64,000 bases of DNA from an uncultured Fluviicola sp. GTDB lineage: Bacteria > Bacteroidota > Bacteroidia > Flavobacteriales_D > Crocinitomicaceae. Below are positions 1-4,724 of this stretch, piece by piece (the first letter of the stretch is position 1; every line of letters starts with the position of its first letter). The notes beneath the pieces are model-generated. The model was not told the DNA's origin. It was given only the letters and a program-made list of their open reading frames with translations, and did no database searches. The stretch is from contig NZ_CABHOL010000017.1 of the NCBI RefSeq assembly GCF_902168135.1, positions 1 to 64,000 on the forward strand, in the 5' to 3' direction. The position numbers were made by a program, and so were the translations under genes.

Positions 1-1342
1 GTTCGTGGCACAGGGACAGGAACGCGGACACGACCCGGTTGTACTGGAGAAAATCTGGAAAGACTGGGAAGCATTTGCATCCTATGCCTTCAACAAATCG
101 CACTCCACGTGTTACGCCTGGATTGCATACCAGACGGCTTACCTGAAAGCAAATTACCCGGCCGAATTTATGGCTGCGGTACTCTCCAATAACCTGAACG
201 ACATTACGCAGGTGAGTTTCTTCATGGAAGAATGCCGCCGGATGGGAATTGAAGTATTGGGACCGGATGTGAACGAATCTTCCTATGAATTTACTGTAAA
301 CCAGGCCGGAGCAGTGCGTTTCGGATTGGGAGGTATCAAAGGTTTGGGAAGCGGACCTGTTGAGAATATTATCGAAGAACGCCAGAATGGATTTTTTACC
401 TCGATCTTCGACATGACCAAGCGCCTGAACCTGCGTTTGGTAAACAAAAAAGCATTGGAAAGCATGGCTTATGCCGGTTGTTTCGATTCCTTCAAAGGTG
501 CTCACAGAGCGCAGTATTTTGCATTGGACGGTTCCGGAAAGACCTTCATTGAAAATGCGTTGAAATACGGGAACAGCTTACAGGATAATGAAAATTCGGC
601 GCAGGTTTCCATGTTCGGGGAATCCACCGACGTGAAAATGCCCGAACCAACAATCCCGAATTCGGAAGAATGGAGTTTGCTGTATAAGCTGAACCGCGAA
701 AGGGAAGTGGTGGGGATTTTTATTTCGGGTCACCCGCTGGATGATTTCCGGGTGGAGATTGAAGCATTCTGTAACGGAAATGTGGAACTGCTTTCAAATG
801 TGAAGAATCATTTGGGGCGTGATTTCACCATTCCGGCTATTATTACGGATGCACAGCATTTAACCACGAAAACCGGAAAACCGTTCGGGTTGATTCTCAT
901 TGAAGATTATACCAATTCGCACAAACAATACATTTTCGGGGATACTTATTTGAAGTTTAAACACCTGTTGACAAAAGATTTGTTCGTAGCGATCAAGGGA
1001 AGAGTGCAGGAAGGGCCGTATCCTGACAAGATCACGAAAATGAAACCGATCGAGTTCAGTATCAATTCCATTGAGCAGCTGCAGGATATGATGGGAAATA
1101 AATCAGCAACGATTAATATTACCGTTCCGATCAAATTACTGGACCAAATGATGCTCAATAAGCTGGAAACGATGTTCAAAGAAAGCGAAGAAGGAAACTG
1201 CTCGGTAAAATTCACCGTGGTAGATCATTTGGACAATCTGACGGTGAGTATGCCTTCCAAACGGCTTCGGATCAATCCATCGGCTAAAATGCTCTCGGAA
1301 ATGAAAGAAATGCAGCTGGAAGTTGGTTTTGATACGAATTGA
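1..1342 (+). CDS. dnaE: DNA polymerase III alpha subunit, C-terminal part (5' truncated by window)
   Basis: This is the C-terminal 446 or so residues of the replicative polymerase catalytic subunit. The reading frame is open through the window's left edge, so the GTG at base 5 is internal and not the start. The segment HSTCYAWIAYQTAYLKANYP and the following AEFMAAVLSNN are characteristic of the end of the DnaE polymerase/fingers region. An OB-fold-like stretch follows at about residues 270-350 of the fragment. The chain ends in a poorly conserved tail where beta-clamp and tau contacts lie in the family. The last 69 bases before the stop are duplicated 511 bp downstream. Confidence 0.95.
   Translation, partial: FVAQGQERGHDPVVLEKIWKDWEAFASYAFNKSHSTCYAWIAYQTAYLKANYPAEFMAAVLSNNLNDITQVSFFMEECRRMGIEVLGPDVNESSYEFTVNQAGAVRFGLGGIKGLGSGPVENIIEERQNGFFTSIFDMTKRLNLRLVNKKALESMAYAGCFDSFKGAHRAQYFALDGSGKTFIENALKYGNSLQDNENSAQVSMFGESTDVKMPEPTIPNSEEWSLLYKLNREREVVGIFISGHPLDDFRVEIEAFCNGNVELLSNVKNHLGRDFTIPAIITDAQHLTTKTGKPFGLILIEDYTNSHKQYIFGDTYLKFKHLLTKDLFVAIKGRVQEGPYPDKITKMKPIEFSINSIEQLQDMMGNKSATINITVPIKLLDQMMLNKLETMFKESEEGNCSVKFTVVDHLDNLTVSMPSKRLRINPSAKMLSEMKEMQLEVGFDTN
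1272..1340 (+). repeat. direct repeat, copy 1: 3' end of dnaE
   Basis: These 69 bases encode the last 22 or so DnaE residues and recur at 1783-1851. I count four differences inside the repeat, plus TGA versus TAA at the stop. All of the internal ones are synonymous in the dnaE frame (TCG/TCA, CTG/TTG, GAA/GAG, GTT/GTC). Confidence 0.9.
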
Positions 1343-1377
1343 TTCAATTGACAATTGAAAAATGGATAATTGAAAAG
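1343..1377. repeat. AT-rich dispersed repeat (caattgacaattgaaa type)
   Basis: This intergenic string is built from the modules CAATTGACAATTGAAA and AATGGATAATTGAAAA. The same two modules occur in the opposite order at 7301-7330, read on the minus strand. A looser relative lies at 5962-5990. All are intergenic, which suggests a dispersed noncoding repeat, but with so few copies chance similarity of AT-rich sequence is not excluded. Confidence 0.5.
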
Positions 1378-1393
1378 TTTTGTATCGGTTTAT

Positions 1394-1714
1394 TCATTTT
1401 GAAAGAGGATCACACGCTTCTCCCCTTGAGGGGAGATTGAGAGGGGTGGGAAGCTTCGGCTCGGTATGGAGACTATTTTTCTTTAGCCATTCAAGATCCG
1501 ATTTGTCCAAATCGCTTTGAGAAATCAACCGACCGTTTTGAATATCAGTTTCACTCATTTCAAGCATGAGTTTTTGCTCCTTGGTCAATTTGATTTTCTC
1601 ATTTTGCAGATCGCTGTTGTCAACTAAATGCATTAAAGCCATTAGATAGTCTTTATCAGAGATTGCTAATAGCTTGTCAATAATTCCATTGCGTATTGCA
1701 TCAATTTGAGCCAT
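1394..1714 (-). CDS. small orphan antitoxin-like protein with repeat-derived tail
   Basis: This is a 106-residue acidic, helical protein. Residues about 40-80 (LTKEQKLMLEMSETDIQNG, then a DLDKSDLEWLKK stretch) have the look of Bacteroidetes addiction-module antitoxins that normally precede a RelE/ParE toxin. That resemblance is from memory, not from a search. No toxin gene is adjacent. The last 20 or so residues (LPTPLNLPSRGE) are encoded by a hairpin-forming intergenic repeat (1417-1453), so the original stop has probably been lost. The gene sits inside the interval bounded by the two dnaE 3'-end copies, which suggests a mobile or recombined cassette. Confidence 0.6.
   Translation of the reverse strand: MAQIDAIRNGIIDKLLAISDKDYLMALMHLVDNSDLQNEKIKLTKEQKLMLEMSETDIQNGRLISQSDLDKSDLEWLKKNSLHTEPKLPTPLNLPSRGEACDPLSK
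1417..1453. repeat. CTCCCCTTGAGGGGAG-type interspersed repeat
   Basis: A hairpin (CTCCCC-TTGA-GGGGAG reading, 1420-1435) is followed by ATTGAGAGGGGTGGGAAG. From general knowledge, sequences of this type are common interspersed repeats in Bacteroidetes intergenic regions. Here it forms the 3' end of the minus-strand small ORF. Confidence 0.6.
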
Positions 1715-1782
1715 TTTTTTCTTATTTCTTCTAAATTAATTATTTGGTTTTGTTTTTCCAAAAGAGAAATTGGTCACTATTC

Positions 1783-1851
1783 TCAATCCATCGGCTAAAA
1801 TGCTCTCAGAAATGAAAGAAATGCAGTTGGAGGTCGGTTTTGATACGAATT
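1783..1851 (+). repeat. direct repeat, copy 2: detached dnaE 3' end
   Basis: This is the second copy of the dnaE 3' end. It keeps the dnaE frame and a stop (TAA, 1851-1853) but has no gene in front of it. Its stop overlaps the convergent S41 protease stop (1850-1852). This suggests that it is the original dnaE terminus and that the 442 bp in between were inserted with their own dnaE end. Confidence 0.9.
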
Positions 1852-3310
1852 AACGACTGATCTGTTTCAAGGCAAATTCCAAAACCCGATCGCTGCTTTG
1901 CAGGTATTCTTCAATGGTTTGTTCCACTGTGAAATCCGGTTTGACACCATCTCCATAGCTTTGATCAGGCAGTTTTTGTACATCCTGTTCGAGGTCTACA
2001 ATTGAAAAGGACAATTGAAGTTCCGTATTCGGAAGTTGGTAGGTAACGGAGATGTGCCCGGTGTGTCCGTAATATCCCCCCAAAGCTTCCTGTCCGATAA
2101 CGACCGTTCCTTCATCGCTTTTCACCATGCTGGCAAATAATGAACCTGCGGAAGCTACGAACGGACTGATCAACAGGTAAACTTTCCCGGTAAAAGCGTT
2201 GGGTTTGGGAGTCCAGAACGCATTGAATGTTTCGTTTTGATAGAACTTTCCGTCTTTTTGAATCGAATGTTCTTCCAGAAGTGTTTCTTCCAGGTCTTTG
2301 ATCTCATCGGTTTCTTCTTCAACATAGTATTTCTTAAAAGGAACGGATTGAAAAAGCGTGAAAGCGGAACGGTTTTCCCTGAAATTTCGCCCGGTCAGGT
2401 AAGAATACAGTAACAGATCATTCGGATCGTTCCCGCCCCCATTTTCCCGGATATCAACGATGAGGTTTTGAATGTTCCGGCTTTTCAGATCATTGAATAC
2501 TGAGTCTAGAAAAGCTGCATAGTGTTTATGACCTTCACTTTTCGGTCCGCCCAGCGCAAAAGTATTCACCGTCAGTAAACCGGTTTCGGAACTGTCCGGG
2601 TATTGAAAAGAGTAATCCGGGCCCTGACTTTTGTCGTATGTGGGAATGAACCGTTTTCGATAGTTTTCCAGGCATTTTTTGTAATCATGGGGCTTCAGGT
2701 TTTTTTGCCTGATTCCCGATTGATCCTTGTAGCTGACGGCAAAAGAATCGCATGTTCCGTAAGCCAGATAAACATAGAATGGGAGCGAACCTGTCTCAAG
2801 GAAAGCATATTTTCCGGTAAGATTGTGTCCGTCCGTGCTGGTGTACTTTGCAACTTCCTTCGCGAAGTCTTTAGCAGGAACCCCGTTTACGGAAAGTATC
2901 TCACTTCCGAGAGGAATGTTGTCATAATCGAGGTTGGAGTACAAGTTGTTATCCAGGTATTTCAAAGGCAGCGGAAAGAATATTTTTTGCCTGCGGAGTT
3001 CTTTTTTCAGGGAGTCCGGAAAATACAGTTCATTGTGGCAGCTTCCGGTAAAATCAATGACCTTCCAAATAATGTTGTAAAATTCGCGGTAAGAAGTGTG
3101 CTTTTGAATGGATTTTCTGCTTGTGGAGAATATGCTGTCTGTTTCCCGTTTTGAATGGTATTTGTATAACCCGGCATTTGCTTTTTCATAAATGCGCCGG
3201 AAAAGGTCAAAATCTTTCAATAGTTGCCGTTTGCTGAAGGATTGGTTTTGCTGGGCAGAACACTCGAGTATCAGAAGGAGGATTGACAGAACGGAAAACA
3301 GCTTGTTCAT
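1850..3310 (-). CDS. S41 family (tail-specific-like) peptidase, exported
   Basis: A Sec signal peptide opens the protein (MNKLFSVLSILLLILECSAQ). I chose the ATG at 3310 because the in-frame extension to 3346 begins with TTG and lacks signal-peptide character. The C-terminal half contains the S41 core: NLIVDIRENGGGNDPNDLLL, then GKVYLLISPFVASAGSLFAS with the expected catalytic Ser in SAGS, then VIGQEALGGYYG. A degenerate PDZ-like segment (SEILSVNGVPAKDF) lies about residues 130-145. The likely role is a periplasmic or outer-membrane serine protease of unknown substrate. An AraC-type regulator lies 36 bp upstream on the same strand. A TATCTTTG -7-like box (3322-3329) lies 11 nt before the ATG. 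Confidence 0.85.
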   Translation of the reverse strand: MNKLFSVLSILLLILECSAQQNQSFSKRQLLKDFDLFRRIYEKANAGLYKYHSKRETDSIFSTSRKSIQKHTSYREFYNIIWKVIDFTGSCHNELYFPDSLKKELRRQKIFFPLPLKYLDNNLYSNLDYDNIPLGSEILSVNGVPAKDFAKEVAKYTSTDGHNLTGKYAFLETGSLPFYVYLAYGTCDSFAVSYKDQSGIRQKNLKPHDYKKCLENYRKRFIPTYDKSQGPDYSFQYPDSSETGLLTVNTFALGGPKSEGHKHYAAFLDSVFNDLKSRNIQNLIVDIRENGGGNDPNDLLLYSYLTGRNFRENRSAFTLFQSVPFKKYYVEEETDEIKDLEETLLEEHSIQKDGKFYQNETFNAFWTPKPNAFTGKVYLLISPFVASAGSLFASMVKSDEGTVVIGQEALGGYYGHTGHISVTYQLPNTELQLSFSIVDLEQDVQKLPDQSYGDGVKPDFTVEQTIEEYLQSSDRVLEFALKQISR

Positions 3311-3346
3311 GGATTTTTTTCCAAAGATAGACCGGGCAATCCTCAA

Positions 3347-4129
3347 TTACTTGTATAATCTTGGCAATTGCCTGTTCAATTGATCCCGGTATGCTTTGGG
3401 TGAAATACCGACATACTTCTTAAAACTGTGGGAAAAATGGGAGATATCCGTAAAATTGTAGGCATAGGCCAGGTCTGTGAGGTCGCAATCGGCATGGATT
3501 TTGGCTTTTGCGGCAAACACTTTTTTCATCAGCACATAACTCATGGGTGACATGCCGGTCAGTGATTTGAATTTTTTGGCAAACCCGTATTTATTCAGAT
3601 GGACAATGCGGGCCAGTTCATCGAGGTAAAGTTTGTCTTCCAGGTTTTGCTCAATGTAGGTCGTCAGTTCGGTCAGGTAATCCGAATGGAAAGCTGTTTC
3701 CTCCTTTGTTGCTTGAGCATAGAGTGACAGTTGTGAGATGAATTCCTTTAGGAGCAATTCGGAACCTGAAGGCTTGTTTTGTTTCATTTCTGCCAGCAGC
3801 TGCGTGAAGGTCCCATTGATTTTTACATCGCGGATCTGCCTGTTCCGGAACCCGATTTCTGTTCCGCTAAGCGCATGTGCCATTAATTCCGGGGATACAT
3901 AGATTGTATCAAAGCTGAGCCTGCTGTCCGGATCAATCAGCGGATTGGCATGCACCTCGTACGGATTGGTGATGGATATACAGCCGGATTCACTGTATAA
4001 AAATTGGTCGTCCAATTCTATTTTTTCAATGCCATTGCTGATAAGTGAAATGCAAAAGGTTTCATGGAAATGCTTTGGGAAATCCTGGCTTTGATTCCTG
4101 ACAGAAATAAAATCAATCTCATTTGTCAT
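3347..4129 (-). CDS. AraC family transcriptional regulator
   Basis: The protein has 260 residues. The N-terminal half is a cupin-like sensor domain (FPKHFHETFCISLISNGIE and following beta-rich sequence). The C-terminal 100 residues form a double helix-turn-helix: the first around ELARIVHLNKYGFAKKFK, the second around AYAYNFTDISHFSHSFKKYV followed by GISPKAYR, which is the canonical AraC C-terminal motif. It is a cytoplasmic DNA-binding regulator whose ligand is unknown. It lies just upstream of the S41 protease gene on the same strand, so the protease is a plausible target, though this is inferred from proximity only. Confidence 0.9.
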   Translation of the reverse strand: MTNEIDFISVRNQSQDFPKHFHETFCISLISNGIEKIELDDQFLYSESGCISITNPYEVHANPLIDPDSRLSFDTIYVSPELMAHALSGTEIGFRNRQIRDVKINGTFTQLLAEMKQNKPSGSELLLKEFISQLSLYAQATKEETAFHSDYLTELTTYIEQNLEDKLYLDELARIVHLNKYGFAKKFKSLTGMSPMSYVLMKKVFAAKAKIHADCDLTDLAYAYNFTDISHFSHSFKKYVGISPKAYRDQLNRQLPRLYK

Positions 4130-4616: not shown

Positions 4617-4724
4617 AACATTTCATATTGGTGAATTCTTTAAGTTACTGATTATCGTCCCTTTTTACTGCGTTGGAATTGTAAGAGAATGTTAATATTT
4701 TGGATTATTTAAGAAACTAGCAGT

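Follow-up and report, generated by a model that had tools for sequence, protein, structure and literature searches.

How does a bacterial genome come to carry the end of one gene twice, with the gene itself still whole? This question is raised by the 3' end of dnaE, the gene of DNA polymerase III alpha, in the window that was analysed here, a stretch of 64,000 nucleotides. The last 69 bp of the gene stand there twice, on either side of a small insert. In a preliminary description of the window, it was proposed that the inner copy had arrived from the dnaE of another strain together with the insert, so that the gene was kept intact, and the arrangement was likened to att-site restoration in integrative elements. 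Caution is needed, because a duplicated gene end with silent changes does not necessarily point to a mobile element. When strains exchange DNA, a few hundred bases can be gained downstream of an essential gene without harm, and a readable remnant of another allele can stay behind. In the present study, the two copies, their flanks and the insert were compared with the corresponding regions in other genomes of the genus.

Materials and Methods

The genome carrying the window (G000) comprises 4,379,353 bases in 56 contigs, and the window begins at base 1 of contig C17. The relatives were 13 other genomes of the genus (G001-G013), and in eight of them the 3' end of dnaE could be aligned. The other five (G004, G005, G009, G010 and G011), in which 24-31 of 67 positions differ at the dnaE end, were left out of the site comparison. 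The search for a second dnaE end covered up to 40 candidates in each genome.

Results

The copy of dnaE in use enters at the left edge of the window as an open frame of 446 aa on the forward strand (2-1342), and this 3' part is 97% identical in G001, G003, G007 and G012. The N-terminal part of the gene lies at C39:2-2944, thus dnaE is split between two contigs, and no cause was found for the break. The inner copy of the terminus (1272-1340, with the stop TGA at 1340-1342) belongs to the gene in use. The outer copy (1783-1851, with the stop TAA at 1851-1853) is a remnant. Together they form a direct repeat of 69 nt on the forward strand, identical at 65 of 69 positions, with 511 bp from start to start and 442 bp between the copies. 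This repeat is real, and chance is ruled out. Four families of direct repeats of at least 32 nt occur in the window, and the copies of the other three are only 63-78% alike. When 421,523 bp of G000 were searched for direct repeats of at least 40 bp and at least 85% identity within 4 kb, three loci were obtained, namely the dnaE locus, an array with a 113-bp offset and a 157-bp intergenic pair around a small ORF.

Since the duplication is 1.3 kb away from a contig end that falls inside dnaE, and the other half of the gene is placed at an end of C39, the two pieces together lacking about 55 bp present in G002, an assembly that merged two strains has to be considered. The longest exact run common to both copies is, however, only 25 bp, and on the cassette side of the join at 1783 the sequence is unlike dnaE, which offers no obvious point of confusion to an assembler, as judged from the assembly alone. 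Collinearity with G002 extends along the 261-kb contig to the right as far as position 4715 or beyond. In view of the short exact run and the lack of shared sequence where the cassette meets the outer copy, we regard an artefact as very unlikely.

Inner and outer copies differ in four codons, all of them synonymous (TCG/TCA for Ser, CTG/TTG for Leu, GAA/GAG for Glu and GTT/GTC for Val), and all four differences are transitions. The two 69-bp copies 511 bp apart, their four silent differences and the stops TGA and TAA had been reported in the preliminary description, and the repeat and codon comparisons confirmed each of them. Of the random changes possible in this stretch of 22 codons, 38 of 198 are synonymous (20 of 66 when counted for transitions). 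Four silent changes out of four would thus arise in a neutral remnant with P ~0.001, or 0.008 if transitions only are allowed. When only the three differences of the outer copy from both G002 and the inner copy are taken to have arisen in an untranslated remnant, the silent-only outcome still has P 0.007-0.03. That only silent differences separate the copies suggests that both were coding sequences, as the preliminary description had argued, with the reservation that these P values come from small numbers and cannot carry the case alone. A coding role for the outer copy was rejected, as its open frame spans only 37 codons, and a scan of 1250-1900 found no promoter or terminator signals.

Within the insert a single gene was recognised, an ORF of 106 aa on the reverse strand (1394-1714), in which residues 1-78 (1481-1714) are conserved and the tail is partly read from a hairpin element. 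No Pfam or NCBIfam model matched this ORF above cut-off. Among 200 genomes sampled from the family, similar antitoxins were found in 25, one of them G000, and the ORF is 76% identical to the antitoxin of G001 and 74% identical to that of G005. Both of these adjoin ParE-like toxin sequences, and the toxin of G005 passes the PF05016 (ParE) model. A match to the G005 toxin stands beside the antitoxin in 22 of the 25 loci, and G000 is one of the three without it. In positions 1-4000 of the window neither a toxin match nor an intact toxin gene was detected, and reading of the sequence gave what appears to be the start of a ParE-type toxin gene on the reverse strand (1473-1490), of which five codons survive before a stop. 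By homology, the insert holds the antitoxin gene of a ParE-type pair whose toxin is lost. It resembles the ParE-type type II toxin-antitoxin modules in the same family of bacteria in its homologous antitoxin and differs from them in that the toxin gene, present there, is gone in G000. A defence-system library gave no match for the antitoxin or for the G005 pair. Among the ORFs of the 442-bp insert, at the Pfam cut-off, there was no recognisable integrase, transposase or other gene for mobility.

The flanks of the two copies were then compared with the relatives. The outer TAA overlaps the stop (1850-1852) of a convergent S41 peptidase gene on the reverse strand (1850-3310; PF03572, E 3.2e-15). 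The preliminary description took this overlap for the original junction, and G002, the sister genome, bears this out. It has one dnaE end and no insert, and the gene meets the convergent protease directly, in the arrangement seen at the outer copy; the 400 bp that begin at the dnaE stop are 96% identical to the outer flank. The outer flank is thus of a protease type that is shared with G007, where the protease end follows about 100 bp after dnaE, and with G012, where it follows within about 10 bp, without an insert. A cassette-free allele with a single copy, which the preliminary description had suggested looking for in related genomes, therefore exists in G002 and G012. In G001, 3.7 kb of other genes separate dnaE from the protease, and no second dnaE end was seen in that interval. 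No relative of the S41 protease was detected near dnaE in G003, G008, G013 or G006. Among up to 40 candidates scored per genome, none of the eight alignable relatives showed a second copy of the dnaE end; G002, one of these eight, is only 84% complete.

A gene that looks globin-like by eye adjoins the protease in G001 (L033 3592-4071), and similar sequence stands directly behind dnaE in G013, which indicates that the region behind dnaE is variable in the genus.

The inner copy has another flank. It is followed on the forward strand by a AATTGAAAAG-type dispersed repeat (1346-1377), with counterparts after dnaE in G003 (40 bp, 82.5%) and G008 (18 bp, 94%), and then by a rare dispersed hairpin element (1416-1451) with the core TCTCCCCTTGAGGGG at 1419-1433, which also stands directly after dnaE in G001 and, in part, in G003. 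Exact copies of TCTCCCCTTGAGGGG number three in G000, two in G001 and three in G003, and in each of these genomes one copy lies less than 80 bp past the dnaE stop on the same strand. G012, G007 and G002 have ten, five and two exact copies, none of them after dnaE, and five of the 14 genomes have none at all. With only two or three copies in about 4.4 Mb, a position behind dnaE in three genomes is hardly due to chance. As the inner and outer copies have different 3' flanks, G000 combines two dnaE 3' haplotypes in series. For the same reason a simple tandem duplication was rejected as the sole cause. This possibility, like the sharing of both copies by close relatives, had been named beforehand as an outcome that would speak against the proposed origin, and such sharing was seen in none of the eight alignable relatives.

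The hairpin could not be assigned to a known RNA family, the best Rfam match being whalefall-1 with 21 bits against a gathering score of 37 (E 0.0068), and an unusually stable fold was rejected (z -0.21). Two matches to Y1-type (REP-associated) transposases occur in G000, on C15 and C36, neither of them near dnaE. In G003, two of the three exact TCTCCCCTTGAGGGG copies lie 3.6 kb apart just behind dnaE (C1:145101 and 148676), and in G012 four copies are clustered at the start of contig C1 (1080-2298).

Discussion

Taken together, the cassette-free allele, the junction of G002 at the outer copy, the silent divergence and the different flank of the inner copy make the joining of dnaE ends from two lineages the best reading of the locus. 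We consider it about an even chance that the locus is a recombination scar uniting two dnaE 3' haplotypes. The main argument rests on the flanks, namely the hairpin type found again behind dnaE in G001 and G003 and the protease type in G002. The pattern looks like an ordinary scar of exchange between related strains and not like a working mobile element. The most likely course, in our view, is that a linear fragment from a related strain was brought in through homologous recombination within dnaE at one side, and that its other end was joined illegitimately at a point in the terminal 69 bp of a dnaE. On this view dnaE stayed whole and ends with the inner copy, and the other tail was stranded 442 bp downstream beside the protease. 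In the mirror case, the homologous exchange would have been towards the protease, and the incoming part would have consisted of the outer tail and the protease. The antitoxin would have been carried along as a passenger, its toxin being lost before or after, and no dedicated machinery would be needed.

Homology-facilitated illegitimate recombination has been described for transformable bacteria (PMC3240628). The combination of one homologous and one illegitimate end would be the most economical means of linking two dnaE haplotypes while leaving one tail behind, and at dnaE it is deduced from the product only. Two features expected of it, a cassette-free one-copy allele and flanks of different origin, were both observed. 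The earlier proposal that the inner copy came with the cassette from another strain's dnaE is therefore upheld in part. The inner flank type is shared with G001 and G003, but the donated side could also be the outer copy with the protease. A donor carrying dnaE, hairpin and antitoxin in this order was not found among the 13 relatives of the genus; three of them have the antitoxin, and always on a different contig from dnaE.

Besides this missing donor, two further observations count against the scar. The first is that when dnaE is divided into six blocks and compared with G002, no mosaic break shows up. In favour of the scar, the silent differences between the copies have a parallel in dnaE as a whole, where over 406 comparable codons all 62 codon differences between G000 and G002 are silent and none is a replacement. 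In a dnaE tree of nine genomes only the grouping of G000 with G002 is resolved. The mirror case may find a hint in the identity to G002, which is 94.5-95.5% for the dnaE pieces and 91.5-93.9% for the outer and protease pieces, a difference that ordinary variation in rate between genes could also produce.

The second is that the informative sites conflict. Over 67 positions, the inner copy has four mismatches to G002 and the outer copy six. Both copies share CCA TCG at a site where G002, G007, G012, G003 and G008 have CCG TCT, G013 and G006 have CCT TCA, and G001 has CCA TCC, and this shared state suggests a recent common history of the two copies. G002, G001, G003 and G006 have the inner copy's CTG and GAA; G007 and G013 have TCA, TTG and GAG, as in the outer copy, and GTC is seen in the outer copy only. 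The codon-aware alignment with the relatives, which had been proposed as a check, hence gave a divided answer, in that CCA TCG unites the copies and CTG/GAA as against TCA/TTG/GAG splits them. On the codons compared, the evidence on kinship is contradictory, and its basis is only four differences in 22 codons.

The shared CCA TCG, which occurs in none of the eight alignable relatives, is what would be expected if one copy had been made from the other. It may be that the final 69 bp of dnaE were duplicated at the locus within one genome, and that the repeats and the antitoxin fragment landed between the copies later; an interior made of dispersed repeats and a broken toxin-antitoxin pair fits this sequence of events. 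As there is no protease sequence after the inner copy, the duplicated unit would have to end almost exactly at the stop codon, no more than a base or two away. That the hairpin also stands after dnaE in G001 and G003 would have to be a coincidence, and silent-only change in an untranslated remnant is improbable (P 0.001-0.03, by assumption). We therefore hold copying in place to be rather unlikely, though it deserves to be kept in mind.

The comparison with att-site restoration leads to the e14 prophage of E. coli K-12. Its site icd is a well-known prophage site (PMC10111431), and the partial duplication of icd is described as 165 bp with 12 exchanges and two conservative replacements (PMC11148124, citing Hill et al. 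1989). This layout has long been known and, as far as that account describes it, the dnaE layout is similar; in both, inserted DNA is bracketed by two copies of a gene's 3' end, the gene uses the copy attached to it, and the differences are mostly silent. The locus could accordingly be what is left of an integrative element whose attachment site was the dnaE 3' end and which brought a replacement end with it, since the upstream copy in use, the downstream remnant and the silent differences have the same arrangement. Of the marks of gene-end restoration, a duplicated end and a functional copy are present at dnaE, whereas no integrase was recognised and recurrent occupation of the site was not seen in the eight alignable relatives. 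The e14 element is a prophage with an integrase gene; the dnaE insert is 442 bp with an orphan antitoxin. Moreover, the G002-like states do not switch between the copies as a crossover predicts, since of the four sites the last three are G002-like in the inner copy and only the first in the outer copy, and the dnaE-protease interval of G001 shows no further dnaE end. As neither an integrase nor a second example was found, the likeness to att-site restoration proposed in the preliminary description found no support, and we judge an integrative remnant to be quite unlikely.

A broader idea is that DNA is exchanged repeatedly at the dnaE terminus in the genus, where short integrase-free cassettes carrying their own silent version of the gene end would swap in homologously and could leave again as 511-bp circles by way of the repeats, the gene being kept whole throughout. 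We give this idea hardly any credence.

Direct repeats were also noted elsewhere. The antitoxin locus of G005 has no direct-repeat family of at least 18 nt, and that of G001 has two, of 41-42 nt. One of the G001 pairs (L095 2440-2480 and 4045-4085; 41 nt, 88% alike) is intergenic and stands on either side of the toxin-antitoxin genes; lying outside ORFs, it is not a gene end. In G000, the two members of the 157-bp intergenic pair (locus L185, C17:142693-142847 and 143120-143276) are 92% identical and 427 bp apart, and they flank a small ORF that appears GIY-YIG-like by eye, near sequences that, also by eye, resemble tRNAs.
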